Source: Bacteroidales bacterium
GTDB taxonomy: Bacteria > Bacteroidota > Bacteroidia > Bacteroidales > UBA932
Assembly: GCA_017423025.1 (NCBI GenBank)
Contig: JAFPGC010000014.1
Span: forward strand, 1 to 46,023
DNA: 46,023 nucleotides
Direction: 5' to 3'
The notes below the pieces were generated by a model. The model worked only from the letters and a program-made list of their open reading frames with translations, ran no database searches and was not told the DNA's origin. The position numbers and the translations under genes are program-made. The first letter of the stretch is position 1. Each line of letters begins with the position of its first letter. Of the stretch, positions 1 to 46,023 are shown piece by piece.

Positions 1-189
1 AAGTTCGGCGAAGAAGTCGTAAAGGCCGGTAACATCATCGTACGTCAGCGCGGTACTGTTCACAATCCGGGTCTGAACGTAGGTATGGGTAAAGATCACA
101 CCCTCTACGCCCTCATCGACGGCACTGTGAAATTCACCCGCAAGCGCGAAGACAAGTCTTTCGTTTCCGTACTTCCCTTCGAGAACTAA
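1..189 (+). CDS. rpmA: 50S ribosomal protein L27 (bL27), 3' part only
   Basis: Frame 1 is open from the window edge to a TAA at 187-189 and encodes the C-terminal 62 residues of L27. Recognisable segments are [27 protein letters not shown] and the basic stretch [10 protein letters not shown]27 is a large-subunit protein near the peptidyl-transferase centre. The 5' part lies outside the window. serS follows after only 3 bases, so the two are probably cotranscribed. Identification is secure from sequence. Confidence 0.95.
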
Positions 190-192
190 GAC

Positions 193-1464
193 ATGCTTAC
201 TTTAAAACTTTTACGCGAGTCTCCGGATTATGTCATCCGGAGACTTGCTGTTAAAAACTTCGATGCCAAGGACATTGTCAACAAGATCATTGTCCTGGAC
301 GACCATCGAAAGGCCCTCCAAACCCGCAGCGACGCCTACCTGGCCGAGCAGAAGAAAGCGGCTGCCGCCATCGGCCAGCTGATGAAGGAAGGCAAGAAAG
401 TAGAGGCCGAGGCCGCCAAAGAAGAAGTGGCCAGGATAAAGATCCGCTCCAACGAGCTGTTGGAGATGGCCGAAGACAACAACGCCAAGCTCAACGAGCT
501 GCTGGCGCTGCTGCCCAACATCCCCTGCGAGCAGGTTCCGGAAGGAAAAGGCGCAGAGGACAACGTGGTGGTAAAGATGGGTGGTCCGGAGCCCAAGCTC
601 CCGGCCGACGCCCTCCCCCACTGGGACCTGGCCAAGAAGTACGACATCATCGACTTCGACCTGGGCGTCAAGATTGCCGGTGCCGGTTTCCCCGTGTACA
701 AAGGCAAGGGTGCCAGACTGCAGCGCGCCCTCATCAATTTCTTCCTGGATTACAACACCGCAGCCGGTTACAAGGAAGTGGAGCCGCCCGTGCTGGTGAA
801 TGGCAATTCCGGTTTCGGCACCGGTCAGCTTCCCGACAAGGAAGGCCAGATGTACTACTGCAACGAAGACCAGTACTACCTGGTTCCCACCGCCGAGGTG
901 CCTGTCACCAACATCTTCCGGGATGTGATTCTCTCCGAGAACCAGTTCCCCCAGAAGTTGACGGCCTATACTCCCTGCTTCCGTCGCGAGGCCGGTTCCT
1001 ATGGCAAGGACGTGCGCGGCCTCAACCGCCTGCACCAGTTCGACAAAGTGGAAATCGTCCGCATCGAGAAGCCGGAGAACAGCTACGCTGCCCTTAATGA
1101 GATGATCGCCCACGTGGAAGGTCTCGTGAATGCCCTGGGTCTGAAGTATCGCATCCTTCGCCTCTGCGGAGGAGACATGAGCTTCACCAGCGCCATCACC
1201 TATGACTTCGAGCTGTGGAGCGCCGCACAGGGCCGCTGGCTGGAGATTTCTTCCGTTTCCAATTTCGAGAGCTTCCAGGCCAACCGCCTCAAGTGCCGTT
1301 ACAAGGACCAGGATGGAAAGACCCAGCTGGTACACACCCTCAACGGCAGCTCGCTGGCCCTGCCCCGCGTAGTGGCCGCCCTGCTGGAGGACAACCAGAA
1401 AGATGGTTACATCGAAATCCCCGAGGTCCTCAGACCTTACACCGGTTTCGACAGAATCGACTAA
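193..1464 (+). CDS. serS: Seryl-tRNA synthetase
   Basis: Cytoplasmic class II aminoacyl-tRNA synthetase (423 aa, normal length) that charges tRNA-Ser with serine. Residues about 1-110 form the N-terminal antiparallel coiled-coil arm, rich in Lys, Glu and Ala. The catalytic core follows, with a motif 2 region (TPCFRREAGSYGKD, then GLNRLHQFDKVE) and motif 3 near the C-terminus (LNGSSLALPRVVAALLEDNQ). The ATG at 193 lies 3 nt after the rpmA stop. There is no Shine-Dalgarno, as is usual in Bacteroidota. A bidirectional terminator follows. Confidence 0.97.
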   Translation: MLTLKLLRESPDYVIRRLAVKNFDAKDIVNKIIVLDDHRKALQTRSDAYLAEQKKAAAAIGQLMKEGKKVEAEAAKEEVARIKIRSNELLEMAEDNNAKLNELLALLPNIPCEQVPEGKGAEDNVVVKMGGPEPKLPADALPHWDLAKKYDIIDFDLGVKIAGAGFPVYKGKGARLQRALINFFLDYNTAAGYKEVEPPVLVNGNSGFGTGQLPDKEGQMYYCNEDQYYLVPTAEVPVTNIFRDVILSENQFPQKLTAYTPCFRREAGSYGKDVRGLNRLHQFDKVEIVRIEKPENSYAALNEMIAHVEGLVNALGLKYRILRLCGGDMSFTSAITYDFELWSAAQGRWLEISSVSNFESFQANRLKCRYKDQDGKTQLVHTLNGSSLALPRVVAALLEDNQKDGYIEIPEVLRPYTGFDRID

Positions 1465-1469
1465 AAAAA

Positions 1470-1498
1470 AGTCTCGGAGTTATTCCGAGACTTTTTTT
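1470..1498. terminator. Bidirectional intrinsic terminator between serS and the sirtuin gene
   Basis: A 9-bp stem AGTCTCGGA (1470-1478) / TCCGAGACT (1484-1492) has a 5-nt loop, with an A-run on the left and a T-run on the right, so it works in both directions. It overlaps the last codons and the stop (1480-1482) of the convergent sirtuin gene. The terminator stem therefore also encodes the C-terminus of that protein. Confidence 0.9.
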
Positions 1499-2184
1499 AT
1501 GAATTCCTGCATGCCCTTGGTGGCCACGTCCTGGATGAAAGTGACGCGGGGGTCGCTCAAGGGAACGGGCTTGGGATCTATCACATAGATGGGGCAGCCG
1601 TTCGGAGCATAACGATAAAGGCCGGCGGCGGGGTAAACCTGCAGGGACGATCCTACGATGAGCAGGATATCGGCTTTCTCCACCAGATCAATGGCTTTCT
1701 CGATGTTGGGGACGGCCTCGCCGAAGAACACGATGTGCGGGCGCAACTGGCTGCCGTTAGGCGCCAGGTCTCCAAGAACTACGGGCCGATATTGCACGTC
1801 AATGACCTCGGCCTCGGAGGCGGTGCGGTCGTAGACGCCGTTCTCCGGACGGACCTTGGTGAGTTCGCCGTGCAGATGCAGCACCTTGGTGGAACCGGCC
1901 CGCTCGTGCAGGTTGTCCACGTTCTGGGTAATCACATCTACATTGTATTCTTTCTCCAAGGCGGCGATGGCTTCGTGGGCGGCATTGGGCTTGGCGTCCT
2001 TGAGCTGCGCGCGGCGCTGGTTGTAGAAATCCAGCACCAGCTTGCGGTTGCGATACCAGCCCTCGATGGAAGCCACGTCGTTCACGTCGTACTGCTCCCA
2101 AAGACCTCCCGTATCGCGGAACGTGGCGAATCCGCTCTCGGCCGATACGCCTGCGCCAGTTAAAACAACCAAGTGTTTCTTCAT
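1480..2184 (-). CDS. cobB: NAD-dependent protein deacylase, Sir2 family (CobB/SIRT5-like)
   Basis: A 234-aa class III sirtuin that removes acyl groups from lysines, using NAD+. Seen in the protein: the NAD-binding GAG (10-12) with SGFATFRD, the QNVDN motif (87-91), and the catalytic His in HLHGEL (about H105). Y54-x-x-R57 (YNQR) is the signature of desuccinylase/demalonylase-type sirtuins. The usual four zinc-binding cysteines are absent; the only Cys is near residue 197. This resembles the zinc-less sirtuins I recall from Bacteroides. The ATG overlaps the stop of the upstream ATPase by one base (TAATG), so translation is probably coupled. It is the last gene of a three-gene unit. Confidence 0.9.
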   Translation of the reverse strand: MKKHLVVLTGAGVSAESGFATFRDTGGLWEQYDVNDVASIEGWYRNRKLVLDFYNQRRAQLKDAKPNAAHEAIAALEKEYNVDVITQNVDNLHERAGSTKVLHLHGELTKVRPENGVYDRTASEAEVIDVQYRPVVLGDLAPNGSQLRPHIVFFGEAVPNIEKAIDLVEKADILLIVGSSLQVYPAAGLYRYAPNGCPIYVIDPKPVPLSDPRVTFIQDVATKGMQEFIKKVSE

Positions 2185-3338
2185 TAGTCTTTCAGTTCAA
2201 AGTAATACTTGCGGATCCAGTACTCGAAGAGCGGATCTATGATCTGCGGATTGTCGTTCTCGTCAAAGACCAGCACTTCCTTCTTCATAAGGGCATCCTT
2301 CACGCGTTTGACATTGGCCGATGAATTGAGACCGTATTTGCGGATGACATCGGCCGCGCTGAAGCGGGTGACACCGTCCACCACGGCGCGCAGGAAGCTC
2401 ACCTGGTGGGTGGTAAGGTCGGCCATAATGGCGTTGAAGCGGGGTTCGTGGATGTTCACCAGCGTGCCCAGGGCCTCAACCAGGGCCTGTTCCACAATGT
2501 AACCCTTGCTCATGTGGTCGCAGATGGCGGCAAAGTGGTTGATGTACCACAGATGCCCCCGGAACAGACGGCAGGCGCCCTGCAGCAGTTCCTTCTCCAC
2601 CACCTTGCCGGCAGCCAGGAAGCCCTTGTGCACATGATCCGCCATTTCCCTTTCGTCTACGGGCGAAAGCGTCACGCGCTCCAGCTGGCGGTAGAAGAGC
2701 TGGCTGCTGAGGAAGATGGCCTTCATGGCATTGACGCCGGAGCCGCAGATGACCCAGGAGAAGAGATTGCTGACTCCCTTCTTCTCCCTCATGCAGGCAT
2801 CCAGCGGCCGCAGGATGACATCGGGGTCCTCCAGGCGGTTCAGGCTCTGGAATTCGTCAATGATGAGGATGAGGCGGGCTCCCCGGTCCTGAGCCAGGGC
2901 ATAAGGGAAGCGGAGCATGGCCTGCACATCGGCCCCTTCCAGTTCCCAGTTTAGGGAAAGGATCTTGTCCTCGTCCTCGAAATTGTTGGGATCGAAGACA
3001 AAGTGGGTGCCGCCCAGGTATTTCTCCGTGAGCGTGGCATATTCGGCCGGAGTCGAGGCCACCATGCGCAACACGGTATTGCCCAGCCTGAGCAGGAAAG
3101 CCTCGGTGGTACGGATATTCAGGGCCGAGAACTGCCCCACCGTAAACACCTTTCCCGACATTCGCATGGAGAAGAGGGCCTGCTGCACCAGCGAGGTCTT
3201 TCCGCTCTTGGGCGGTTCGCTCAGCAGCACGTTCTCCCCCTGGCCCAGAAGATTTCCGAGCAGGGTGACATCGGCCCTTCTTCCGACGAAGTTCTTGCCG
3301 GTTACATATTGTGCGTAGGGAAATGCTGTATCAATCAT
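2184..3338 (-). CDS. AAA-type ATPase, 'archaeal ATPase' family (PF01637-like)
   Basis: A 384-aa predicted cytoplasmic P-loop ATPase. The Walker A is EPPKSGKTS (about 41-49), and the Walker B is LILIIDEFQ with the acidic pair near 161-162. The C-terminal part looks like a winged-helix/DUF234-type segment (SAADVIRKYGL, then LVFDENDNPQIIDPLFEYWIR). Such proteins are common in Bacteroidota; most have no known function. Here it lies between an EF-hand membrane protein and a sirtuin, with one-base TAATG overlaps on both sides, which points to a joint function. A paralogue of similar size, with the same DEFQ Walker B, is encoded at 26818-27951. Confidence 0.85.
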   Translation of the reverse strand: MIDTAFPYAQYVTGKNFVGRRADVTLLGNLLGQGENVLLSEPPKSGKTSLVQQALFSMRMSGKVFTVGQFSALNIRTTEAFLLRLGNTVLRMVASTPAEYATLTEKYLGGTHFVFDPNNFEDEDKILSLNWELEGADVQAMLRFPYALAQDRGARLILIIDEFQSLNRLEDPDVILRPLDACMREKKGVSNLFSWVICGSGVNAMKAIFLSSQLFYRQLERVTLSPVDEREMADHVHKGFLAAGKVVEKELLQGACRLFRGHLWYINHFAAICDHMSKGYIVEQALVEALGTLVNIHEPRFNAIMADLTTHQVSFLRAVVDGVTRFSAADVIRKYGLNSSANVKRVKDALMKKEVLVFDENDNPQIIDPLFEYWIRKYYFELKD

Positions 3339-5551
3339 TATTCTGCGGTTTCAGGGAGTTCAACAGCGGGTTCGGCAGCCGTTTCCACCGCCTCTTCCAC
3401 CTGCTCCTGGGCTTCAGGTTCTACCTTAGCCTTCTTGAAACACTTGCCGGTAGAGAGGCACCAATAGACGCCGCAGGCTACCAGCAGGCAGATAACGATG
3501 CCACAGAACCATCTCCAGAAGGCCTTCTTGCGGGCGGCGGGATCCACGGCGGTCAGGCGCGGGAAGTCGGCCAGCGAAGTGAGGGTCTTGCCGAATTTCA
3601 CATTCACCAGGGACTTGGCGTTGATGGCCCAGCCATTGGCGTTGAGCACGGGACCCAGGTCACGCTTGCGGAGTTTTCTCCAGGCAATGAACATGGACGG
3701 GCCGGAGATGAGGAGCATGATGCCCACAATTACCAGCAGCAGCTGCCAGAATTTAAGGGACGCGGCGCCTTCCACTACGGCCACAAGGAACTGGCCGATA
3801 AAGCCGATGGCCATGCCGATGGCGGCAAAGATACCGGCGAACTTGGCAATGTCAAAGGAGGATGTGGCGGCCTTGGCGGCTTCCTTGCCGTCCCCTTCCA
3901 GCTTGGTGGAGGTGGCGACATCGGCCTTGGCGGTGAGGTCGGACAGGGACTTTTCGTTCTTCTCTGCGGCACTCTTGTCAACCTTGTCGCTAATCATGCG
4001 GGCCACTTTCTTGTACGGGGCCCAGAAGGCCTGGCGCACGGAGATGGGATTGTCCACGATGGCAATCACCTTGGCGGTGTAGTCGTTGCCGTCGCGGTCG
4101 TAGAACACGGCGTTCTTGCCTTCGCGCAGGCCGTCTACGTCACCGTCGGTGAGGACGGCGGCAATGTTGAAGCTGGCACCCAGTTTCTCGCTGGTGCAGC
4201 TGCAGTACAGGATGTACATGCCGCTGAGCGAGGAGATTTCCGGGGAAGGACCGGCCACCTTGATGCAAAGGTCTGTGCTGCGCTGGTCAATGTACAGGCG
4301 TCCGGCCTGGAACATGGCCTTCTGATCGGGGTCGTAGAAATCGGCCAGTACCACATAATTATTAAGGAAGCGGTAGAAGTTCTTCTGCAGGTGCAGCACT
4401 TTGTCCACTTCTTCGATGGAAAGGGCGTTGGCTTCCTCGGCCTTGTCCTTCTCGATGAGTTCCAGCAGGGAGGCCTTCTTGTCTTCCTCCAGGATGGCCT
4501 TGATGGCGTCGATGCCCAGGGATTCCACCTCGGCGCCCTTCTTGGCCTGCAGCCAGGCGGTGTAGGGGGCAAACTTGGCGCAGACATCGGCCCATTCCTC
4601 TTCCGTGATGCGGTCTTTCTTCCAGCCGATGAGTCCTACCATGGTTTCGACGGCGTTCTTCCAGGCGGGGTTCACGGACTTGAGGGCCAGCACGCCGTCC
4701 ATCACAGGCTTGGCCAGCGGCTGCAGCGCAATTTCGTCGGAGGCCGATGCCAGGTTTCCTTCAATGGCGGCAATCTTCTCCACGCTCACGTCTACGGCGG
4801 GGGCGGTGGCGGCGTCAAAGCTGATGAGTTTGCAGCGCATGTAATAGTCGGCCATCTTTTCCTTCAGGGCCTCGACGGCGGCCAGGGCTTCGGCGGTCTT
4901 TTCGCCGAACGGGAGCACCTCCTTGGTGCATTCTTTCTGCCAGGCGGCGTAGTCTGCGCAGGCGGTGTAGAAGGCCTCGATCTGCTCGGTGGTGATGCCG
5001 GGCACGCCGCTGCGGTCCATGGAGGAGGTCAGGCCGGCAATGGTTTCGATGAGCTTGGCGATTGCCTCGTCGGCCGCGCTGGCGGGGGTGATGATGCCGT
5101 CGCCGTTGAACTGGGTATCGGCAAAAATCCTGGTATTATCGGCCGTATCTTCCAGGGAAATGGACTCTTTCTTAAGGCCCAGGTTGTTCAGAATCTGGCG
5201 GGCCGATGCCTGCAGGCGCGCACCTACGGGATCTTCTGCGTTGAAGTCTTCCAGCTGAAGGGAATCCTTTTCCTCCAGAAGGAGATCGGGATTCTTGAGG
5301 ATGCCCGTGAGCCAGTTGGCCGTGGCGATGACTTCGTCCACACGGATCTTGCCATCGTTGTCTACATCAATGTACTTGAGGCATTTCTCGTCAAATTCCA
5401 GGTTGTTCACCGGGCAGCTGAGGACCGTCCACATCTTACGGTCCAGTTCTCCCAGGTGACGGATGTCTTCTCCGCTACGGATTTTGACTCGGACGGTGCC
5501 TCCCACCGATGTGAAGGCCCAGGGATAGGTGTTCTTAGCAGGCTTTTTCAT
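3338..5551 (-). CDS. EF-hand membrane protein of unknown function
   Basis: A 737-aa protein whose family I do not recognise. Residues 62-73 form a canonical EF-hand loop (DVDNDGKIRVDE). A second, degenerate NGDG loop lies near 145-156, so calcium binding is plausible. A long Ala/Glu/Lys-rich helical region follows. Two adjacent hydrophobic helices lie around residues 570-640 (FAGIFAAIGMAIGFIGQFLV and LLLVIVGIMLLISGPSMF), with a third near 690-710. An acidic Glu/Ala/Pro-rich tail closes the protein. There is no signal peptide, so the large N-terminal part is probably cytoplasmic. It is the first gene of the unit with the ATPase and the sirtuin, and it is divergent from rpsU. Confidence 0.7.
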   Translation of the reverse strand: MKKPAKNTYPWAFTSVGGTVRVKIRSGEDIRHLGELDRKMWTVLSCPVNNLEFDEKCLKYIDVDNDGKIRVDEVIATANWLTGILKNPDLLLEEKDSLQLEDFNAEDPVGARLQASARQILNNLGLKKESISLEDTADNTRIFADTQFNGDGIITPASAADEAIAKLIETIAGLTSSMDRSGVPGITTEQIEAFYTACADYAAWQKECTKEVLPFGEKTAEALAAVEALKEKMADYYMRCKLISFDAATAPAVDVSVEKIAAIEGNLASASDEIALQPLAKPVMDGVLALKSVNPAWKNAVETMVGLIGWKKDRITEEEWADVCAKFAPYTAWLQAKKGAEVESLGIDAIKAILEEDKKASLLELIEKDKAEEANALSIEEVDKVLHLQKNFYRFLNNYVVLADFYDPDQKAMFQAGRLYIDQRSTDLCIKVAGPSPEISSLSGMYILYCSCTSEKLGASFNIAAVLTDGDVDGLREGKNAVFYDRDGNDYTAKVIAIVDNPISVRQAFWAPYKKVARMISDKVDKSAAEKNEKSLSDLTAKADVATSTKLEGDGKEAAKAATSSFDIAKFAGIFAAIGMAIGFIGQFLVAVVEGAASLKFWQLLLVIVGIMLLISGPSMFIAWRKLRKRDLGPVLNANGWAINAKSLVNVKFGKTLTSLADFPRLTAVDPAARKKAFWRWFCGIVICLLVACGVYWCLSTGKCFKKAKVEPEAQEQVEEAVETAAEPAVELPETAE

Positions 5552-5578
5552 ATGGTAATAGTTTTGGTTATCAGTGCT

Positions 5579-5594
5579 ATAACATAAATGTTAT
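5579..5594. promoter_or_regulatory. Inverted repeat ATAACAT-AA-ATGTTAT
   Basis: A perfect 7-bp inverted repeat with a 2-bp spacer. It lies just downstream of the -7 box of the leftward promoter, at or near the expected start of transcription for the EF-hand operon. It could be a repressor operator or a 5'-UTR hairpin; the sequence cannot tell which. Confidence 0.45.
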
Positions 5595-5596
5595 CG

Positions 5597-5628
5597 CAAA
5601 TATAATAAATAATTTTGTGCATTTGCAA
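5597..5628 (-). promoter_or_regulatory. Promoter of the EF-hand/ATPase/sirtuin operon
   Basis: On the minus strand the -7 box is TATATTTG (5597-5604), with a TTG at 5626-5628 about 21 bp upstream. This fits the Bacteroidetes TTG/TAnnTTTG consensus apart from slightly wide spacing. It overlaps the oppositely directed rpsU promoter, so the two may compete. Confidence 0.6.
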
Positions 5629-5644
5629 AATTTATCTAACTTTG
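5615..5644 (+). promoter_or_regulatory. rpsU promoter
   Basis: The -33 element is TTG (5615-5617), inside TTTTG, and the -7 element is TAACTTTG (5637-5644). They are separated by 19 bp, an exact match to the Bacteroidetes housekeeping promoter. Transcription should start near 5648-5651, giving a leader of about 30 nt that contains the Shine-Dalgarno site. Confidence 0.8.
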
Positions 5645-5661
5645 CAGCCCATTTGAACAAA

Positions 5662-5670
5662 AAAGGAGGT
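5662..5670 (+). promoter_or_regulatory. Strong Shine-Dalgarno before rpsU
   Basis: AAAGGAGGT is a near-perfect complement of the 16S 3' end. It lies 9 nt before the ATG at 5680 and decides the start codon. I see no comparable site before other genes in the window. From the literature on Flavobacterium johnsoniae, bS21, bS18 and bS6 hide the anti-SD in Bacteroidetes ribosomes, and a strong SD at rpsU is thought to allow autoregulation by bS21. Confidence 0.9.
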
Positions 5671-5679
5671 GTAAAAAGC

Positions 5680-5874
5680 ATGATCATCGTACCCATCAAA
5701 GAAGGCGAAAACATCGAAAGAGCCCTGAAAAAATTCAAGCGCAAGTTCGAGAAGACCGGTGCCGTCCGCGAGATGCGCGCCCGCAAAAACTTCGAGAAGC
5801 CTTCCGTGAAGAAGCGCATGGCGCTCCAGAAGGCTATCTATGTTCAGCAGCTTCGTCTTCAGGAGGAGCAGTAA
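5680..5874 (+). CDS. rpsU: 30S ribosomal protein S21 (bS21)
   Basis: A 64-aa basic protein starting MIIVPIKEGENIERALKKFK, with the typical FEKPSVKKRM segment. An upstream in-frame start exists but lies 5' of the SD, so the ATG at 5680 is the true start. bS21 sits on the small-subunit platform. In Bacteroidetes it helps to sequester the anti-Shine-Dalgarno. The gene is monocistronic, with its own promoter and terminator. The leader SD suggests that the protein controls its own translation. Confidence 0.95.
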   Translation: MIIVPIKEGENIERALKKFKRKFEKTGAVREMRARKNFEKPSVKKRMALQKAIYVQQLRLQEEQ

Positions 5875-5900
5875 GCCTTTTACACACCTTATTATTATAA

Positions 5901-5933
5901 AAAACCGGACCTCGAAAGAGATCCGGTTTTTTT
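5901..5933. terminator. Terminator between rpsU and the M64 peptidase gene
   Basis: The stem AAAACCGGA/TCCGGTTTT continues into CTC/GAG after a C-A mismatch, closed by a GAAA tetraloop. A T-run follows on the right and an A-run precedes it, so it is bidirectional. Its 24-bp core (5904-5927) matches, in reverse complement, the hairpin at 8323-8346 in 22 of 24 positions; only two loop bases differ. Confidence 0.92.
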
Positions 5934-5949
5934 GTTAATATATGTAACT

Positions 5950-8055: not shown

Positions 8056-8067
8056 AGCGATTCCCCT

Positions 8068-8253
8068 TTAAAAATACAAGCCATCATCTATTGATGAGCC
8101 GAAGACGTCATCTGAACTGGAAATGGAGAACGGCGAGACGGGATTAATCGGAATGATCTCATTACTCGCCGTCAGGATGCTGCCCGAAATCTGGAAGTAC
8201 AGAACCTCCACAACGGGCACCTCGTAAGGCGCTTTGTTGGTGTTAGTGTTCAT
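8068..8253 (-). CDS. Small protein of unknown function upstream of the M64 peptidase
   Basis: A 61-residue protein starting MNTNTNKAPYEVPVVEVLYF and ending in an aromatic DDGLYF. I see no signal peptide or membrane segment. The pattern of a polar start, YEVPVVEVL, an ISGSILTASN segment and then a Ser/Asp-rich tail resembles a class of short Bacteroidales proteins often found next to secreted proteins; I know no function for it. It has a consensus promoter 23 nt upstream and ends 12 nt before the M64 peptidase, so the pair form an operon. It could be a peptide substrate or partner of the peptidase, but that is a guess. Confidence 0.65.
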   Translation of the reverse strand: MNTNTNKAPYEVPVVEVLYFQISGSILTASNEIIPINPVSPFSISSSDDVFGSSIDDGLYF

Positions 8254-8275
8254 AGATATGTTAAGTTAGCTTCTA

Positions 8276-8306
8276 CAAATATAACTGATATAAGCCATAA
8301 ATCAAA
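8276..8306 (-). promoter_or_regulatory. Promoter of the peptide/M64 operon
   Basis: On the minus strand the -33 element is TTTG (8303-8306) and the -7 element is TATATTTG (8276-8283), with exactly 19 bp between TTG and the -7 box. This is a full match to the Bacteroidetes consensus. It lies 23 nt before the ATG at 8253. Confidence 0.8.
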
Positions 8307-8316
8307 GTATACAAAT

Positions 8317-8346
8317 AGAAAAACCGGATCTCTCACGAGGTCCGGT
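8317..8346 (-). terminator. Terminator downstream of lptB
   Basis: The stem ACCGGATCTC (8323-8332) / GAGGTCCGGT (8337-8346) has a TCAC loop and one T-G pair. On the minus strand a T-run follows. It ends transcription from lptB, 74 nt after its stop, and it is nearly identical to the hairpin at 5904-5927 on the other side of the M64 module. Confidence 0.88.
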
Positions 8347-9235: not shown

Positions 9236-9254
9236 AGTTTAATGTTAACGTTAC

Positions 9255-38281: not shown

Positions 38282-38283
38282 TT

Positions 38284-38757
38284 CTACTTGGAATAGGGAT
38301 GGTAGAAAAGGGAGTCCTTGTTAAACTGAAGGTATAGCGTATCGAGGGCCGATGAAGGCTGGGGCAGACGTTTGGTATCGGGCTTGAGGCCCCATATGCG
38401 CAGGAAACCATTGCGCCAGTTCTCTTCCTTAAGCTCTTTCTCGGCCTCCTTTGCCTTCACCGTCAGGCGGTTTTCCACCTTTTCCATAATTTTCTCCATG
38501 CGGGAGGCGTCCTCCAGGTAATACCCCAGGCTGTACATGAAATCGTCCGTGTCGTAGCCAAAACTCTCGAAGATGCCTTCATACACTAACGAAGTATCGG
38601 CCTGTTTGCGAAACTCCTGGTTTATCTTGAGGTACTGGTCCTGCATCAGGACCTGCAGCATGATTTCTTCCATGTCTCCCCGCGGGATGCGCTGCGGCCC
38701 CTTGTGACAGGAGACCGCCAGCACCAGCAGGCAGACGATGGGAAGAAGGCGTTTCAT
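38284..38757 (-). CDS. DUF4296-type lipoprotein
   Basis: A 157-aa protein with lipobox LAVSC (Cys17), then RIPRGDMEEIMLQVLMQDQY, typical of DUF4296 lipoproteins in Bacteroidota. It is mostly helical, charged and without an enzyme motif; function unknown. One-base TAATG overlap with pheT and close spacing to the amidohydrolase. Confidence 0.85.
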   Translation of the reverse strand: MKRLLPIVCLLVLAVSCHKGPQRIPRGDMEEIMLQVLMQDQYLKINQEFRKQADTSLVYEGIFESFGYDTDDFMYSLGYYLEDASRMEKIMEKVENRLTVKAKEAEKELKEENWRNGFLRIWGLKPDTKRLPQPSSALDTLYLQFNKDSLFYHPYSK

Positions 38758-41198
38758 TATCTGAGCGTGGCTCCAAACTGGTTCTGCAGGGCGGTGAGCA
38801 CGTTGTTCATGGTGCTCTCCACCTCGTTGTCGGTAAGGGTGTGCTCAAGGTCCTGAAGCACGAAGTTCAGGGCGTACTGCTTCTTACCGGCGGGAATCTT
38901 CTCTCCGCGGTACACGTCGAACAGGCTCACGCTCTTGATGAGCTTCTTGCCGGCCTTGAGGGCGCACTGGCGGACATCGGCATAAGCGACGCCTTCGTCC
39001 AGCAGGAGGGCCAGGTCACGACGCACCTCGGGGAAGCGGGGCAGCTCCTTGAAGGAGAACTTGTCGCGCTTGATGAGGGAGAAGAGGACTTCCCAGTTTA
39101 TCTCGGCCGCAAACACCGGCTGCTTGATGCCGAAGCGCTTGCACAGGGCCGGATTCAGGGTGCCCAGGGTGGCCAGGAGCTTGGGCTCCTTGCCGGGCAG
39201 GCTGTAGGTAATGCCCTCGGAGAAGATGTCCGAAGGGGCGGCGCCCATGGCCAGGGTGTTCACGTCAATGCGGTAACGGGCCATAAGGGCCTCTACATAA
39301 CCCTTCAGGAGGAAGAAGTTGGACTTCTGGGCGGGACTGCGCCACACCTTGTCCGGCGTTCCGCTGATGAACAGGGAGAAGCAGCGGTGCTCTTCGTAAC
39401 CGGCCAGGGTGGTTCCGTCGGTTTCGGGACGGCGCTGGTACACAGAGCCGTACTCGAAGAACTTGAGGGACGCAGCCTGACGGTTCAGGTTGTACGCCAC
39501 CACTTCCAGGCCGTTCAGAAGGAGGGTCTGGCGCATGACATTCAGGTCCTGGGAAAGCGGGTTCACAATGTGGACGCACTTTTCGGCCGGGAAAGTCTCC
39601 AGCTTGGTATAGTATTCCTCCTTGGTGAGGGAGTTGTTCATGGTCTCTACGAAGCCATTGGCTGCCAGCCAGTTGGAGATGGCGTTGCGGGTGGCCTCGG
39701 GATCCGGCTGGGCCGAAGGATTCACGCTCATGCGCAGGTTCTGCGGCAACTCGATGTTGTTGTAGCCGTAGATGCGGAGGATTTCCTCCACCACGTCGCA
39801 CTCGCGGGTGACGTCCACCATATAGGTGGGGGCGGCCACCACGGCGCCATCGGCCTTCTTCTCTACAAACTGGTAATTGAGGCCTTCCAGGATCTTTTCG
39901 ATGGTGCTGTGGCCGATCTTCTTGCCGATAAAATGCTCGATGCGGTTGTAATCCAGGGTGATGCGGGCCCGTTCGATGCGGGTGGGATATACCTCGCGGA
40001 CCTGGCCGATGACCTCGCCGCCGGCCACCTCCTGGATGAGGAGAGCGGCGCGCTTAGCAGCGTAGGGAGCGGCCTCAGGGTCTGCTCCACGCTCGAAACG
40101 GAAGCTGGCGTCGGTGCTCAGCTGCTGGCTCTTGGCCGTCTTGCGGATGCTCACGGGATCAAAATAGGCGCCCTCGATGAACACGTCCACGGTGCTTTCC
40201 GTCACGCCGGAATCCTCACCGCCGAAAACACCGGCGATGCACATGGGACCCGCTGCATTGGCAATGACCATGTCGCAGGCGTGGAGCTTGCGCTCGATGC
40301 CGTCCAAGGTCTTGATGGGCTCACCCTCGGCCGCCCGGCGCACAATCACCTTACCATCCACTTTGGCGGCGTCGAAGGTATGCAGCGGCTGACCCGTCTC
40401 GAACAGCACGAAGTTGGAGATATCCACCACGTTGTTGATGGGCTTGAGGCCGATGGACATCAGGCGCTCCTGCAGCCACTCGGGGCTGGGGGCCACCTTC
40501 ACGCCCTTGACGGTGATGCCCACGTAACGCGGGGCACCTTCGGTATCCAGCACTTCCACGGGGATGGATTCCCCGGCGCCTTCCTTGAAAGCGTCTACGG
40601 AAGGGATGCAAAGCTGGGCGGGGATGTCCTTGCTCCTCAGATATCCGTACAGGTCACGGGCTACGCCGATATGGGAAGCCGCATCAATGCGGTTGGCGGT
40701 AATTTCGTACTCGATGACGGCCTCGTCCTTCAGCTGCAGATATTCCTTGGCGGGAGTACCCACGACAGCGTCTTCCGGCAGCACCATGATGCCGGCGTGG
40801 CTGGAGCCGATGCCCAGTTCGTCCTCGGCGCAAATCATGCCGAAGCTCTCCACTCCGCGGATCTTGGACTTCTTGATCTTGAAGTCTCCGGGAAGCACGG
40901 TGCCCAGCTGGGCGAAGAGGACCTTCTGCCCGGCCGCCACATTGGGGGCGCCGCAAACCACCTGGACGGGTTCCGGAGTGCCGTCATTAACCGTGGTCAC
41001 ATGCAGGTGATCGGAATCCGGGTGGGGGTCGCAGGTGAGCACCTGGGCCACTACCACGCCCTTCAGACCGCCGGGAATGACTTCCTGCATTTCCACGCTG
41101 TCCACTTCAATACCGATGGAAGTCATGGCCTCTGCCACCTGCTCCGGGGTAAGGTCACACTTCAGATACTCTTTCAGCCAATTGTAAGATAATTTCAT
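38757..41198 (-). CDS. pheT: Phenylalanyl-tRNA synthetase beta subunit
   Basis: 813 aa from ATG 41198 (MKLSYNWLKEYL). An in-frame ATG at 41219 lies in the intergenic repeat and is unlikely. Domains in order: tRNA-binding (about 40-150), B3/B4 editing, B5, core, and a C-terminal FDX-ACB anticodon-binding domain (FKELPRFPEVRRDLALLLDE). It pairs with PheS, which is encoded elsewhere. It follows ftsY after 45 nt. Confidence 0.95.
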   Translation of the reverse strand: MKLSYNWLKEYLKCDLTPEQVAEAMTSIGIEVDSVEMQEVIPGGLKGVVVAQVLTCDPHPDSDHLHVTTVNDGTPEPVQVVCGAPNVAAGQKVLFAQLGTVLPGDFKIKKSKIRGVESFGMICAEDELGIGSSHAGIMVLPEDAVVGTPAKEYLQLKDEAVIEYEITANRIDAASHIGVARDLYGYLRSKDIPAQLCIPSVDAFKEGAGESIPVEVLDTEGAPRYVGITVKGVKVAPSPEWLQERLMSIGLKPINNVVDISNFVLFETGQPLHTFDAAKVDGKVIVRRAAEGEPIKTLDGIERKLHACDMVIANAAGPMCIAGVFGGEDSGVTESTVDVFIEGAYFDPVSIRKTAKSQQLSTDASFRFERGADPEAAPYAAKRAALLIQEVAGGEVIGQVREVYPTRIERARITLDYNRIEHFIGKKIGHSTIEKILEGLNYQFVEKKADGAVVAAPTYMVDVTRECDVVEEILRIYGYNNIELPQNLRMSVNPSAQPDPEATRNAISNWLAANGFVETMNNSLTKEEYYTKLETFPAEKCVHIVNPLSQDLNVMRQTLLLNGLEVVAYNLNRQAASLKFFEYGSVYQRRPETDGTTLAGYEEHRCFSLFISGTPDKVWRSPAQKSNFFLLKGYVEALMARYRIDVNTLAMGAAPSDIFSEGITYSLPGKEPKLLATLGTLNPALCKRFGIKQPVFAAEINWEVLFSLIKRDKFSFKELPRFPEVRRDLALLLDEGVAYADVRQCALKAGKKLIKSVSLFDVYRGEKIPAGKKQYALNFVLQDLEHTLTDNEVESTMNNVLTALQNQFGATLR

Positions 41199-41210
41199 AT
41201 TGCTATTCCT

Positions 41211-41240
41211 TATCGTCATTCCCGGCCTGACCGGGAATCT
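41211..41240. repeat. Palindromic repeat (GTCATTCCCGG type) between ftsY and pheT
   Basis: ATTCCCGG (41218-41225) / CCGGGAAT (41231-41238) with loop CCTGA, preceded by CGTC. It is a member of the widespread 'GTCATTCCCGGC-tTGA-CCGGGAAT' intergenic repeats. It sits in the mRNA between the two genes. Confidence 0.8.
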
Positions 41241-41243
41241 CTT

Positions 41244-42164
41244 TTATTGTATATCTTCGAGTTTAAACAAATCTTCTACAAACTCTTTCTTGTCGAAGAC
41301 CTTGAGGTCTTCCACTCCTTCCCCTATTCCCAGGAACTTGATGGGGAACTTGAAGCTGTCCACAATGCCTACCACCACGCCTCCCTTGGCGCTTCCGTCC
41401 AGTTTGGTCACGGCCAGGGCGGTGACGTCCGTGGCCTTGGAGAACTCCTTGGCCTGGATGAAGGCATTCTGCCCGGTAGAGCCGTCCAGCACCAGCAACA
41501 CCTCGTGCGGGCCGTCAGGCACCACCCTGCGGATGACATTGCGGATTTTGGTGAGCTCGTTCATGAGGTCCACGCGGTTGTGCAGACGGCCGGCGGTGTC
41601 GATGAGCACCACATCGGCCTCTTTGGCTACAGCCGATTTTACCGTGTCGAAGGCCACGGAGGCAGGGTCTGCCCCCATGGGCTGCTTGACGATATCGGCC
41701 CCGGCGCGTTCCGCCCAGACGGTGAGCTGCTCCACGGCGGCGGCGCGGAAAGTATCGGCCGCTCCTATGGTGACTTTCTTGCCCTGCTTCACCAGCATGG
41801 AGGCCAGTTTGCCGATGGTGGTGGTCTTGCCCACGCCGTTCACGCCCACGATGAGCATGACGTAAGGCTTCTTGGAAAAGTCAAAAGGCTGCACGGGGGC
41901 GTCGTCTCCCATGAGATTGGCAATCTCGTCCCTGATGAGGGCGGTGAGTTCCTCCATGTCCACGTACTTGTCCTTCTCCACCCGGTCCTCGATGTTGTCT
42001 ATGAGCTTGAGCGTGGTGTCTACGCCCATGTCGGAAGACAGGAGAGCCTCCTCCAGTGCATCCAGCACATCTTCGTCCACCTTGGACTTGCCCGTAATGG
42101 CCCGCCCCAGCTTCTGGAAGAAGTTCAGGTTGGTCTTTTTTACGCCTTTATCGAATATTCCCAT
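41244..42164 (-). CDS. ftsY: Signal recognition particle receptor FtsY
   Basis: A 306-aa SRP-family GTPase without the acidic A domain, typical for short FtsY forms. G1 is GVNGVGKTTT (107-116), G3 DTAGRLHN, G4 TKLDGSAKGG. It docks SRP-ribosome complexes at the membrane. Consensus promoter upstream; pheT follows on the same strand. Confidence 0.96.
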   Translation of the reverse strand: MGIFDKGVKKTNLNFFQKLGRAITGKSKVDEDVLDALEEALLSSDMGVDTTLKLIDNIEDRVEKDKYVDMEELTALIRDEIANLMGDDAPVQPFDFSKKPYVMLIVGVNGVGKTTTIGKLASMLVKQGKKVTIGAADTFRAAAVEQLTVWAERAGADIVKQPMGADPASVAFDTVKSAVAKEADVVLIDTAGRLHNRVDLMNELTKIRNVIRRVVPDGPHEVLLVLDGSTGQNAFIQAKEFSKATDVTALAVTKLDGSAKGGVVVGIVDSFKFPIKFLGIGEGVEDLKVFDKKEFVEDLFKLEDIQ

Positions 42165-42181
42165 AGATACGTATTAACTTA

Positions 42182-42211
42182 CAAAGATAACATTTTCGGC
42201 CCATAAAACAA
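42182..42211 (-). promoter_or_regulatory. ftsY promoter
   Basis: On the minus strand the -33 TTG is at 42209-42211 and the -7 TATCTTTG at 42182-42189, 19 bp apart, an exact consensus. The -33 adjoins the terminator of asnA. Confidence 0.82.
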
Positions 42212-42214
42212 TGA

Positions 42215-42241
42215 AAAAGCCGCCCGGAAAGGACGGCTTTT
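42215..42241 (-). terminator. Terminator of asnA
   Basis: AAAAGCCG (42215-42222) / CGGCTTTT (42234-42241) with an inner CC/GG pair, followed by a U-run on the minus strand. It starts directly after the asnA stop (42243). Confidence 0.88.
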
Positions 42242-42242
42242 C

Positions 42243-43280
42243 TTATGCCAAATCTATGCCGGCCTGCTGGCAGGCGCGGCGCATTTCCGGCGGCCAGATG
42301 GCGCTCTGGATTTCGCCAATATGGGCCTTTCTCAGGAGGAACATGCAAAGGCGGGACTGGCCTATACCACCGCCGATGGTCTGCGGCAGCTTGCCGTCCA
42401 GCAGGAGCCTGTGGAAATAGAGGTCTTCCTTCCAGAGCATGTCCTTGAGTTCCAGCTGGCGGTGCAGGGCCTCGGGATTGACGCGGATGCCCATGCTGGA
42501 AATCTCGAAAGCACTGTCCAGCACCGGATTCCAAAGCAGGATATCGCCATTGAGGCCGAAGTAACCGCCCTCCGTGGGGGTGCTCCAGTCGTCGTAGTCG
42601 GCGGCGCGGCCGTCGTGGGCCTTTCCGTCTGAGAGTTTTCCGCCAATGCCGATGATGAAAACGGCCCCGTACTCCTTGGCGATGGCGTTTTCACGCTCCT
42701 TGGCGGTGAAACCTGGATAGCGCTGCAGGAGTTCTTCGGCCTGGATGAAATGAATCTCCTCCGGGAGCATGGGGGTTATCTGGGGAAACTCCACGTAGAG
42801 CTTGTTCTCCGTAACCTTGACGGCCTCGTAGATGCGGCGGACGGTCTTCTTGAGGAAGACCAGGTTGCGCTGCTCCGGGGTCATCACCTTCTCCCAGTCC
42901 CACTGGTCCACGTAGATGGAATGGATGTTGTCCAGGTCCTCGTCCGGACGCAGGGCATTCATGTCCGTATAGATCCCGCGACCGGGCTCTACGCCCAGTT
43001 CGGCCAGTTTCAGGCGCTTCCACTTGGCCAGGGAATGCACCACCTCGGCAGGGGCATCGGCCAGACTCTTTACCGGAAACTTCACCGGGCGCTCCACTCC
43101 GCTAAGATCGTCGTTGAGACCCTGCCCGGAGAGCACCATCATGGGGGCCGTCACACGCAGCAGAGCCAGCTGGGCGCTCAGATTTTCCTGAAACATGTCT
43201 TTCACGGCCTTGATGGCCTTCTCCGTCTGCTCAACACTGCCAAGCAGATTCCGGTAATTCTTGGGGATATATAGTGACAT
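42243..43280 (-). CDS. asnA: Aspartate-ammonia ligase (asparagine synthetase A)
   Basis: 345 aa from ATG 43280; a TTG 9 nt upstream lies in the -7 box. The class II synthetase-like fold is shown by LRVTAPMMVLSGQGLNDDL, then VDQWDWEKVM and GIRVNPEAL, and the C-terminal GGGIGQSRLCMFLL. It makes asparagine from aspartate and ammonia using ATP. The -7 box ends 6 nt before the ATG, so the mRNA is nearly leaderless. Confidence 0.95.
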   Translation of the reverse strand: MSLYIPKNYRNLLGSVEQTEKAIKAVKDMFQENLSAQLALLRVTAPMMVLSGQGLNDDLSGVERPVKFPVKSLADAPAEVVHSLAKWKRLKLAELGVEPGRGIYTDMNALRPDEDLDNIHSIYVDQWDWEKVMTPEQRNLVFLKKTVRRIYEAVKVTENKLYVEFPQITPMLPEEIHFIQAEELLQRYPGFTAKERENAIAKEYGAVFIIGIGGKLSDGKAHDGRAADYDDWSTPTEGGYFGLNGDILLWNPVLDSAFEISSMGIRVNPEALHRQLELKDMLWKEDLYFHRLLLDGKLPQTIGGGIGQSRLCMFLLRKAHIGEIQSAIWPPEMRRACQQAGIDLA

Positions 43281-43286
43281 AGCGTG

Positions 43287-43294
43287 CAAAGATA
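43287..43294 (-). promoter_or_regulatory. -7 box of asnA (nearly leaderless)
   Basis: TATCTTTG on the minus strand. A TTG lies 22 bp further upstream (43317-43319), inside the first CCCGTACAC repeat region, wider than the ideal 19 bp. Confidence 0.6.
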
Positions 43295-43308
43295 GTCATT
43301 TTTTCGGC

Positions 43309-43398
43309 CCCGTACACAAAAACGGGCCTCTGGGTGTACGGGTGGGCAAAAAACAACAACCCGTACACCAAAACACCAGGTTTTGTGCACGGGTTGTT
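43309..43398. repeat. Four alternating inverted copies of CCCGTACAC
   Basis: Copies: CCCGTACAC 43309-43317, GTGTACGGG 43334-43342, CCCGTACAC 43360-43368, and the variant GTGCACGGG 43385-43393. Start-to-start spacing is 25, 26 and 25 nt, with alternating orientation. Alternative hairpins are possible between neighbours. Confidence 0.8.
43348..43398 (-). terminator. Terminator of the lepB/rpmB/rpmG/DUF4295 unit
   Basis: Long hairpin AACAACCCGTACAC (43355-43368) / GTGCACGGGTTGTT (43385-43398), with one mismatch, followed on the minus strand by six U. It lies 18 nt after the DUF4295 stop and uses the two rightmost copies of the CCCGTACAC repeat. Confidence 0.85.
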
Positions 43399-43416
43399 AT
43401 TAGAAGCGAAAAGGCT

Positions 43417-43575
43417 TTACTTCTTAGCGAAGAAATCTTTTTCCTTACCCTCTTCCACCAGCTGCTCTACGAACACGTAGGCACCGGTCTTGGGGCTCTT
43501 TTCCATACGGATCACCTTCACCATGTGCTTTGCACCGGCTTTTGCATCGAAGGTTGCAACTGCTTTCTTTGCCAT
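43417..43575 (-). CDS. DUF4295 small basic protein (likely ribosome-associated)
   Basis: 52 residues, MAKKAVATFDAKAGAKHMVK to KDFFAKK. DUF4295 proteins are short, basic, specific to Bacteroidota and encoded next to rpmB-rpmG, as here. The Flavobacterium johnsoniae ribosome structure revealed a new protein, bL38; DUF4295 is a candidate for that, but I am not certain of the match. It starts 12 nt after rpmG. Confidence 0.85.
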   Translation of the reverse strand: MAKKAVATFDAKAGAKHMVKVIRMEKSPKTGAYVFVEQLVEEGKEKDFFAKK

Positions 43576-43587
43576 AGTCTAAACTGT

Positions 43588-43776
43588 TTATTTAATCTCA
43601 CGGTGGAGGGTTACTTTCTTGAGGTACGGGTTGTACTTCATACGCTCCAGGCGGTCGGGGGTGTTCTTCTTGTTCTTGGTGGTGATGTAACGGGACATAC
43701 CGGGAACACCGCTAGCCTTCTGCTCTGTGCACTCCAGGATGACCTGCACCCTGTTTCCTTTCTGTTTCTTTGCCAT
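43588..43776 (-). CDS. rpmG: 50S ribosomal protein L33 (bL33)
   Basis: A 62-aa protein, [20 protein letters not shown], with the typical [16 protein letters not shown]. Only one Cys remains, so this is the zinc-free form. It lies between rpmB and DUF4295, with about 21 and 12 nt spacing. Confidence 0.96.
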
Positions 43777-43797
43777 AATACTTAAGGATTAAAAGGG

Positions 43798-44040
43798 TTA
43801 AACAAGGTTCACGTATCCTTTCTCCTGAGCGGCCTTGAGGGTAGCGTCGAGACCATTCTTCTCGATGATACGCATGCCCTTGGTGGTGACCTTCAGGGTG
43901 ATGAAACGCTGTTCGGCCTCGGACCAGAACTTCTTGGTCTTGAGGTTGAGGGAGAAGTCACGCTTGGTGCGCAGCTTGGAATGGGCAACGTTGTTGCCGA
44001 TCATTCTCTTCCTACCGGTTATCTGACAAACCTTTGACAT
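43798..44040 (-). CDS. rpmB: 50S ribosomal protein L28 (bL28)
   Basis: An 80-aa protein, MSKVCQITGRKRMIGNNVAH, with KLRTKRDFSLNLKTKKFW. It follows lepB by 20 nt and leads rpmG and DUF4295 in the same direction. Confidence 0.96.
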   Translation of the reverse strand: MSKVCQITGRKRMIGNNVAHSKLRTKRDFSLNLKTKKFWSEAEQRFITLKVTTKGMRIIEKNGLDATLKAAQEKGYVNLV

Positions 44041-44060
44041 AATATTTTACTTTTTTATTG

Positions 44061-45398
44061 TTATACAAGTTTTAAAAAGCGTTTCCAGCGGATGCTCTTC
44101 GGGAATGCCTTGGTGGCATCGGTGGAAAGCCAGATGATGGACGGGGATCCCACAATGTGGTCTTCCGGAACGAATCCCCAGTAACGGGAATCCAGGGAGT
44201 TGTGGCGGTTGTCGCCCATCATGAAATAGTAGTCTTGTTGGAACGTGTATTCTGCAGCGGGTTCTCCGTTGATGAAAATACTTCCATCCTTAACTTCCAG
44301 GGTGTTGTGCTCGTAGTCGCGGATAATGCGCTCGTAGAACGGGAGATTATCCTGATTCAGGGGAACCGTCACACCCTTTTGGGGAATCCAGAGAGGGCCG
44401 AAGAAGTCGCAGGTCCAGCGCGTTTTCCCGGTGAAGGGGAAGATGCCGGTGTCCTGTCCGGTGGCGGGATAATGGTCCAGATTGGGCGTTATGTCCACCA
44501 CGCTCTTGAGCTCTTTCACTTTCTCCAGCATTTCTGCGGTGAGCGGCATCGTAGGATAGCCGGGCAGACGCGAATCGAAATACAGTTCGGAGAGGTTCAG
44601 GCCCAACTCCTCCAGCTTGAGCTGGTTGATACGGGAACCGCTGGTGATTACCTGATACGTGAGCTGTCGTCCGGGATAATCGGGCTCCTTTTCTCCGTTC
44701 ACCCACACCAGACCGTCTTTCACTACCAGCGTGTCTCCGGCAACGGCGACACAGCGCTTGACGTAGTGGTCCTTTTTATCGGCAGGACGGACAATGATAG
44801 GGCCGAACTGGGCAATGGTCTTTTCTCTTCCGTAGGTGCGGACCCAGGCGTAGTAGTCGTCTGCGGGGCGCTGGGTAAGAACAGTATCACCATTGGGGAA
44901 TCCGAAAACCACGATGTCTCCCCTTTTGACCTCACGGAAGCCCTTCAGCCTGCGGTACTTGTTCTGGATGAGAGTGGAATAGGACTCTTTTCCGAACGCC
45001 CGGTTGTGGGTGAAAGGAATGGTGAGGGGCGTCTGGGGGACGCGCGGTCCATAGGTGAGCTTGGATACGAAGAGATGGTCTCCCGTATACAGTGTGCTCT
45101 CCATGGACGAGGAAGGAATCTTGAAAGCCTGGAAGAAGAAAATATTGATGAAGGTGACCACAATCACGGCGAAGATGATGGCATCCAGCCAGTCCAGCCA
45201 AAAGTTGTGTTTTTCACCGGGCGCATACTCTTTTTTCCAAAAGAGCCACTTGACCTTCTTGGTAACGATGAGGTCGAAGATAATGCCCAGTCCCAACAGG
45301 AACCAATAGTTTCCCAGCCAGATCACCCAAGCCACGTAGAGTACAGACCAGAAACCCAGCCTGACCCACTTGTTTCGGATGATTTCCTTCCAGCTCAC
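44061..45398 (-). CDS. lepB: Signal peptidase I
   Basis: A 445-aa inner-membrane protease that removes signal peptides in the periplasm. It has three hydrophobic N-terminal helices (about 15-45 and 70-90). The catalytic Ser is S98 in IPSSSMESTL and the catalytic Lys is K214 in HYVKRCVAVAGD. The family boxes are KRGDIVVF and MMGDNRHNSLDSRYWG. The insertion between the Lys box and box E (about 230-390) makes it longer than E. coli LepB (324 aa), as usual in Bacteroidota. The start is GTG, 10 nt after rplT. Confidence 0.95.
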   Translation of the reverse strand: MSWKEIIRNKWVRLGFWSVLYVAWVIWLGNYWFLLGLGIIFDLIVTKKVKWLFWKKEYAPGEKHNFWLDWLDAIIFAVIVVTFINIFFFQAFKIPSSSMESTLYTGDHLFVSKLTYGPRVPQTPLTIPFTHNRAFGKESYSTLIQNKYRRLKGFREVKRGDIVVFGFPNGDTVLTQRPADDYYAWVRTYGREKTIAQFGPIIVRPADKKDHYVKRCVAVAGDTLVVKDGLVWVNGEKEPDYPGRQLTYQVITSGSRINQLKLEELGLNLSELYFDSRLPGYPTMPLTAEMLEKVKELKSVVDITPNLDHYPATGQDTGIFPFTGKTRWTCDFFGPLWIPQKGVTVPLNQDNLPFYERIIRDYEHNTLEVKDGSIFINGEPAAEYTFQQDYYFMMGDNRHNSLDSRYWGFVPEDHIVGSPSIIWLSTDATKAFPKSIRWKRFLKLV

Positions 45399-45408
45399 GG
45401 AACAATAA

Positions 45409-45753
45409 CTACTTTACGGATTTAACAATAGCCTCAAAAGCCTTGGGGTTATTCATGGCAAGGTCTGCGAGAACTTTGCGGTTAAGGCCGATGTTCTGCT
45501 TGGCGAGACGACCCATAAGCTGGGAGTAGGTGAGACCATGCTGGCGGGCGGCGGCGTTGATACGCTGGATCCACAGGGAGCGGAATTCGCGCTTCTTGGC
45601 CTTGCGGTCGCGATAGGCGTAGGTGAGACCTTTCTCGTAGGTGTTCTTTGCAACTGTCCAGACATTCTTGCGGGACAGGAAATTACCGCGGGTTCTGGAG
45701 AGAATCTTCTTGCGGCGTGCCCTGGAGGCAACAGAGTTAACTGATCTAGGCAT
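45409..45753 (-). CDS. rplT: 50S ribosomal protein L20 (bL20)
   Basis: A 114-aa basic protein, [20 protein letters not shown], with [19 protein letters not shown] and [20 protein letters not shown]. It is a large-subunit assembly protein and in other bacteria represses its own operon through rpmI. It lies 77 nt after rpmI and 10 nt before lepB. Confidence 0.97.
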
Positions 45754-45830
45754 AAATTTTTACATTTTTGGAGGCAGTGACCTTTTTAAAAACAGAGGTG
45801 CTTTCAGACTGCGTTCCAGTTAAACAATAA

Positions 45831-46023
45831 TTACATTACAAGAAGTTCCTTTAAACGGCCGAGATCGTCCTTCTCCAGGATAGCGAAGTGATCCAGGTTG
45901 CGTTTCTGTTTCTTGGTCTTCTTGGTGAGGATGTGGCTGTGATAAGCGTGCTTCCTCTTGATCTTTCCCGATCCGGTAAGCGTAAAGCGCTTTTTGGCAC
46001 CGGAGTTGGTTTTAAGCTTTGCC
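45831..46023 (-). CDS. rpmI: 50S ribosomal protein L35 (bL35), 5' end outside the window
   Basis: 64 codons are visible, from [20 protein letters not shown] to [13 protein letters not shown] and TAA (45831-45833). This is essentially the whole protein except the first one or two residues. It precedes rplT, the conserved infC-rpmI-rplT order; infC would lie beyond the window. Confidence 0.95.

Follow-up and report, generated by a model that had tools for sequence, protein, structure and literature searches.

The DNA analysed here (the window) is the whole 46,023 nt stretch of Bacteroidales contig JAFPGC010000014.1 (assembly GCA_017423025.1), lying on contig C5 of a metagenome-assembled genome (MAG) of 2.39 Mb in 88 contigs and 87% completeness, and the element in question is the heptamer GGCCGAT (ATCGGCC on the opposite strand). 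The host is a rumen member of Cryptobacteroides (Bacteroidales), named from the titles of its BipA relatives, which were rumen and gut Bacteroidales, some of them Candidatus Cryptobacteroides. The window was called for 42 genes, including those for an S41 peptidase, an M64 peptidase-like protein, an ABC ATPase, a HipA-like protein and BipA/TypA. Exact word counting gave 69 copies of GGCCGAT, 34 on the plus and 35 on the minus strand, or one per 667 bp, against a zero-order expectation of 7.5, and the enrichment is certain. A sequence-only reading of the window had claimed a strong enrichment of about 65 copies with the strands about equal, about seven by chance and about ten copies of GGCCGAC (10 were counted), and the counts bore it out; its example positions were right except 30753-30759, which is truly 30750-30756, and the rare Arg codon that it had placed around 17205 is at the third site below.

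Plus strand, GGCCGAT, 34 copies, all within 1784..45492 (exact word count): starts 1784, 2140, 2316, 3793, 4742, 5201, 9761, 10091, 10990, 12172, 13183, 16983, 17203, 19536, 21120, 21328, 25896, 30750, 30809, 30944, 30997, 33764, 34749, 35619, 36543, 36743, 37133, 37387, 37487, 38347, 39911, 40004, 40448, 45486
Minus strand, read as ATCGGCC, 35 copies, all within 370..43062 (exact word count): starts 370, 2349, 2928, 3270, 3920, 4340, 4586, 5138, 9335, 10415, 12982, 14768, 16961, 17046, 18402, 18962, 19722, 20944, 21001, 22108, 23650, 25730, 30350, 30822, 32698, 35760, 35973, 37856, 37940, 38596, 39849, 41613, 41694, 41754, 43056
17203..17209, plus strand: copy in the S41 peptidase gene 16156-17745, where it forces the rare Arg codon CGA (Gly-Arg-Cys) (translation; Pfam S41 and PDZ)
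30809..30828, unstranded: inverted pair of copies with a 6-base gap, intergenic between BipA (28820-30625, minus) and a gene at 30922 (plus) (sequence)

Under a second-order Markov model the window expectation rose to 11.1 and GGCCGAT ranked first among all 7-mers. In a genome sample of 331 kb, made up of the window and 20 stretches, of which two were masked, 576 copies were counted against 88 (second-order) and 129 (third-order, the model proposed in the sequence-only reading), and the word was the top 7-mer in both. The whole MAG held 4,066 copies (2086 plus, 1980 minus), and the reversed control word was found 318 times (167 plus, 151 minus). The base 3' of the word in the 331 kb sample was G in 49% and A in 29% of copies; copies arising in codon-shuffled sequence showed a like lean (G 47/114, A 25/114), and the 7-mer was therefore taken as the full word.

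Excess beyond codon usage

It is exceedingly improbable that the word is a by-product of ordinary codon and dipeptide usage. A fifth-order (maximal) Markov model did leave GGCCGAT unflagged in the window, outside the top 12 7-mers, because the hexamers within it, GGCCGA and GCCGAT, are themselves inflated (the two highest 6-mers in the window under a fourth-order model), and Ala-Asp was mildly over-used, at 1.20 here and in a second genome (G541) versus 1.14 and 1.00 in two outgroup sets, a difference too weak for use as a sign of protein drift towards Ala-Asp. The sequence-only reading had named codon shuffling as the control under which its claim might fail; when synonymous codons were shuffled the excess stayed, with 66 copies in window genes versus 12.5 ± 3.1 (maximum 21 in 500 shuffles), 560 versus 109 ± 9 in sampled genes (100 shuffles) and 588 versus 114 in a 345 kb sample, which refutes the by-product explanation. 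Outgroup members of the genus (25 loci) reached only 1.14x under the same codon control (126 versus 111). Divided by reading context, observed and shuffled copies were 21/1.6, 4/3.2 and 285/55 in the sense frames and 91/39, 17/3.4 and 142/6.8 in the antisense frames, so that five of six contexts were clearly raised and one was flat (4 versus 3.2). Ala-Asp pairs following G were written GCC GAT 285 times and GCC GAC 69 times; following C the numbers were 13 and 40. With composition allowed for, intergenic DNA (16 versus 2.4, 6.6x) was raised as strongly as genes (588 versus 90, 6.5x), and it carries fewer copies per kb because it is AT-richer. Given the equal genic and intergenic excess, the five raised contexts and the lack of polarity described below, GGCCGAT is acted on as DNA rather than as codons.

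Strand, spacing and copy-free tracts

The sequence-only reading had argued against a polar motif of the FtsK-orienting polar sequence (KOPS) or Chi type, and the strand data agree. Strand counts in the 20 stretches, for which origin and terminus positions are not known, agreed with 50:50 (p 0.81); models with a polarity of 0.60 or 0.75 along the replichores did worse by 5 and 56 log units, and polarity was likewise absent in G541 (for its variant TGCCGAT) and in a third genome, G535. A correlation of strand with GC skew (-0.64, p 0.0003, 27 windows of 10 kb) was given no weight because it weakened in 31 windows of 8 kb (-0.31, p 0.09) and weakened further, to -0.18, once the effect of gene orientation was removed. 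Strand runs seen in the position lists of contig C1 of the source genome (G000) and C2 of G541 were also set aside, the G541 run being a listing artefact in balanced sequence.

These counts bear on a Chi-like role, in which the word would protect against or guide repair by an AddAB/RecBCD-type nuclease and copies would be kept since they promote recombinational repair. Like GGCCGAT, Chi is short, asymmetric and in excess in the chromosome, and in other species its sites have a similar length and density. GGCCGAT is retained at synonymous sites (below), and the source genome encodes, at L265:4764-7736 near the ComEC gene, an AddA-like protein that has UvrD helicase domains and matches a PD-(D/E)XK nuclease below threshold. 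Chi is, however, typically biased to one replication strand, unlike GGCCGAT, and no comparable word turned up in the samples from elsewhere in the genus or from 14 other genera, which counts against Chi because these relatives would need Chi too. A Chi-like role is consequently judged unlikely.

Intervals between copies were near random (coefficient of variation 1.06 versus 1.00 ± 0.04 for random placement), and of 150 genes of at least 900 bp, 13 were copy-free where Poisson occupancy predicts 13.1 (dispersion 1.18). A site bound by an abundant, clade-specific protein of the nucleoid or of chromosome organisation would account for a word that is dense, on both strands and even across genes and intergenic DNA. 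Known chromosome-organising sites are usually far fewer or polar, though, the spacing is random and not regular, and a strong gain in one clade is unexpected for a core structural protein; this role ranks just after the Chi-like one.

Two tracts of the window that the sequence-only reading had reported as empty were exact: one lies between the copies at 5201 and 9335, the other between those at 25896 and 30350.

5208..9334, unstranded: copy-free tract with an M64 peptidase-like gene 5950-8055 and an ABC ATPase 8420-9223 (gap list, Pfam)
25903..30349, unstranded: copy-free tract with the end of a HipA-like gene 25432-26694, further genes and most of BipA (gap list, Pfam)

Their interpretation as cassettes found no support. 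Mean spacing predicts 0.57 gaps of at least 4 kb in 345 kb, but the number of copy-free genes matches Poisson occupancy, so the two gaps amount to a mild departure at most; most of BipA/TypA, an ordinary housekeeping gene, lies in the second. The full dyad ATCGGCCGAT occurred 14 times in 325 kb, below the independence expectation. The inverted pair at 30809-30828, between divergent genes, could form a hairpin.

Distribution, gain and retention

Counts were made over 400 genus genomes, drawn evenly from a larger group and including the source genome; they ran from 18 to 4,066, with the source genome highest (by eye), and across 110 genomes from the family's other genera the highest count was 984. 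Genomes were called enriched on a BipA tree when GGCCGAT reached at least 5x the count of the reversed word. On this tree of 43 genomes, which is built on one gene and so is slender evidence for a species phylogeny, 33 enriched genomes fell in a single 36-row clade (support 99/99). The three rows inside the clade but below the cut were L028, L032 and L065, the last a long branch; L028 and L032 together retained a small codon-controlled excess (21 versus 6.4 in 33 kb). As for comparable words elsewhere, no 7-mer exceeded a codon-controlled score of 6.2 in 17 genomes covering 14 other genera plus this one, a scan of 17 of 118 relatives with one to three stretches of at most 20 kb each, which a weak word could escape. 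GTCGATG was considered as a sister-group dialect (148 versus 86 codon-shuffled) and not accepted, as no top word there. A separate word, TTCCGGA, showed a milder codon-controlled excess, about 2x to 3x, which did not distinguish enriched from non-enriched groups (L001-L080; G540 stretches L274-L279).

When 157 clade sites were aligned to outgroup loci in the BipA neighbourhood, the outgroup majority had the same word at 6%. Single-base precursors differed most often at position 7 (23 sites, C to T) and position 6 (13 sites, to A), then at positions 2 and 3 (4 sites each), position 4 (3 sites) and position 1 (1 site), with position 5 unlisted; these are not counts of independent events, since related genomes count one site repeatedly. 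Near-misses were depleted here relative to the outgroup (the core variant GACCGAT 0.26x versus 1.46x, CGCCGAT 0.54x versus 0.99x, GGCTGAT 0.47x versus 0.76x) and edge variants were raised (TGCCGAT 1.5x; GGCCGAA 2.0x, outgroup 0.98x), a combination that graded recognition would produce. It might instead reflect biased repair or mutation, in which a clade-specific enzyme, comparable to that of very short patch repair, converts mismatched near-misses into GGCCGAT while the word itself is not under selection; the depletion of GACCGAT and GGCTGAT and a density blind to function would both follow. Precursors at six of seven positions, by transitions and transversions, oppose this because a bias for a single mismatch type would act on one position, and the C5 methyltransferase that is the classical partner of such repair is absent from the source genome, so that we regard biased repair as improbable, behind the Chi-like and nucleoid roles.

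Between pairs of clade members GGCCGAT was kept in 45% of 2,060 comparisons, while 13 of 15 comparison words were kept in 12-33%; the other two were GCCGATG, which overlaps GGCCGAT (38%), and TGCCGAT (62%). Codons were kept more often inside the word than elsewhere in clade pairs (TCG 66% versus 31%, CGA 35% versus 13%, ATC 89% versus 74%, GAT 62% versus 48%) and less often when clade and outgroup were compared (TCG 18% versus 32%, CGA 2% versus 8%, GAT 24% versus 44%). GCC was kept in 86% inside the word versus 88% before GAT outside it (clade pairs). Within the outgroup the inside and elsewhere figures were 49% and 49% for GAT and 61% and 40% for TCG (23 pairs, 6 sites). By these alignments GGCCGAT was gained inside one Cryptobacteroides clade, often from near-misses, and kept there at synonymous sites. 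The DNA of the clade has been subject to a sequence-specific agent that pulled GGCCGAT out of near-misses and maintains it.

The preferred first base differs among relatives. In whole genomes TGCCGAT outnumbered GGCCGAT in G541 (2,678 versus 1,702) and G543 (2,409 versus 1,447); with codon control the excesses of TGCCGAT and GGCCGAT were 4.1x and 3.0x in G541, 3.8x and 3.3x in G543, 3.2x and 4.8x in G535, 3.2x and 3.9x in G540 (the latter two being mixed genomes) and 1.5x and 5.2x in the source genome. The core GCCGAT is constant, and the first base is tolerant and weighted differently in each lineage. Conversion of the G-word to the T-word in place was looked for in 11 and 73 core-keeping aligned pairs, too few to judge, and no conversions were seen.

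Viral contigs with close GGCCGAT pairs, from at least 80 loci, had a median of 3.5 further copies per 10 kb; they were rejected as special carriers, as they look like unspecific GC-rich contigs, two dense ones being mildly above codon shuffles. One stretch of an IMG/VR contig (L300, 13.6 kb, GC 62%) held 25 copies versus 1 of the reversed word, and its genes 17 versus 7.3 codon-shuffled.

Candidate readers and known systems

Machinery was sought in a panel of 47 genomes: 21 enriched, 2 borderline (G536, G539) and 24 others. The methyltransferase families PF07669, PF01555, PF00145 and PF02086 gave no match in the source genome (a MAG 87% complete; PF02384 and rarer families were not searched). 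Over the cut-off in the 21 enriched genomes were PF07669 in 9, PF01555 in 4, PF00145 in 8 and PF02086 in 4; none of the four was common to all 21, and five enriched genomes (G000, G512, G517, G530, G531) were without all of them. Two of the nine PF07669 matches were frames of 301 aa that clear the cut-off only in combination with their neighbours; these two are probably the protein methyltransferase PrmC. In its shape (7 bases, asymmetric, A near the 3' end) GGCCGAT resembles targets of type IIG or type III enzymes, and the word might be maintained around an orphan or restriction-linked DNA methyltransferase in the manner of highly iterated palindrome 1 (HIP1). In sections of PMC4390886, overrepresented cyanobacterial words follow methyltransferase gain, and HIP1 and other iterated words resemble GGCCGAT in their clade-wide, genome-wide excess, in relatives favouring a variant and in unequal near-miss positions. 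The HIP words described there are nevertheless palindromic and tied to methyltransferases, whereas GGCCGAT is asymmetric and none of the four families, absent here and patchy elsewhere, is shared. A HIP1-like origin is thus about as unlikely as the Chi-like role.

PF00437, the pilus and type II secretion ATPase, was over the cut-off in none of 19 enriched genomes and in 2 of 11 others; the two, non-enriched members of the genus, carried a strong GspE/PilB-type ATPase of more than 400 bits (L169 of G134 and L170 of G041), and the other 28 genomes in this comparison were unlike them. ComEC was present in 46 of 47 panel genomes and in 21 of 21 enriched ones. In the source genome it is a protein of 360 aa with the Competence domain only (L265:15434-16516, minus strand); in most of the 47 genomes the match sits in frames of similar length. 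The usual readers, a methyltransferase or a type IV pilus, were thus missing in the families searched, and no substitute was found.

The closest likenesses are to the DNA uptake sequences (DUS) of Neisseriaceae and the uptake signal sequences (USS) of Pasteurellaceae, which also comprise thousands of copies of a short asymmetric word on both strands, with one-base variants in relatives and two variants together in some genomes. One-base and mixed dialects are known for DUS, and the density of GGCCGAT, 4,066 in 2.39 Mb, is like the high end of DUS, kingDUS having 5,918 copies in 2.4 Mb (extracts of PMC3630211). Unlike DUS and USS, GGCCGAT has 7 rather than 9-12 bases, its host is one of the Bacteroidales, and it is known here from sequence alone. 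Riemerella, also of the Bacteroidota, transforms without pilus genes, using ComEC, DprA, ComF, RecA and several proteins of unknown function, according to the excerpted text of PMC8459023, in which 'uptake sequence' is not mentioned. Among open-licence PMC papers, searches on Bacteroidetes uptake sequences, GGCCGAT, Cryptobacteroides methylation and Bacteroidales competence returned nothing on point.

We tentatively favour GGCCGAT as a possible signal by which self-DNA is recognised in uptake or recombination, one that would have spread through molecular drive and would have a putative pilus-free reader; somewhat more doubtful is the fuller proposal that a pilus-independent self-DNA recognition system of the Bacteroidota wrote its own 7-base signal, with one-base dialects, across a rumen clade. 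A putative sequence-specific receptor or recombination factor would favour fragments carrying GGCCGAT, and a favoured fragment would replace the resident allele by homologous recombination, so that chance copies would spread until they were dense and randomly spaced. An altered reader would shift the preferred first base and begin a dialect, and the reader would be something other than a type IV pilin, as proposed for the Riemerella uptake machine. An uptake or recombination drive is favoured because it would account at once for a density that is blind to region, for the absence of polarity, for tolerance at the edges and for the shifts in preferred base, while the Chi-like and methylation explanations rank below it because each fails a tested feature. 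The sequence-only reading had offered uptake-like, modification and nucleoid-protein motifs; the first is best supported, given the clade gain, synonymous retention, tolerant edges and one-base shifts, the second is weakened by the distribution of the four methyltransferase families, and the third is undecided.

Several observations weigh against a self-DNA signal. The alignment evidence comes nearly all from about 20 kb around BipA, and in clade pairs GAT after [ACT]GCC was kept in 79%, above GAT inside the word. Genomes preferring TGCCGAT retain a 3x excess of GGCCGAT, which makes the dialect a shift and no switch. Crowding of GGCCGAT at gene ends was looked for and none was seen, although Pasteurellaceae uptake sequences crowd there (extracts of PMC2346458). 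The 19 enriched genomes searched for it have no PF00437 pilus ATPase over the cut-off, ComEC does not separate enriched genomes from the others, and so short a ComEC may not serve transformation; both the receptor and DNA uptake by the clade are presumed.

Few lineages are known to repeat a word so strongly, and every such word led to a DNA process of central importance, be it transformation, recombination or methylation. Hundreds of relatives have been sequenced, enrichment is graded and preferences have shifted, so that the Bacteroidales case makes the origin of the word datable and its reader traceable by genome comparison. If the uptake reading is true, it would mean that abundant and mostly uncultured gut bacteria exchange DNA naturally without the usual pilus. 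Beside the AddA-like gene, L265:949-4659 (minus strand) encodes a TonB-plug protein of 1,236 aa with a C-terminal OmpA domain.

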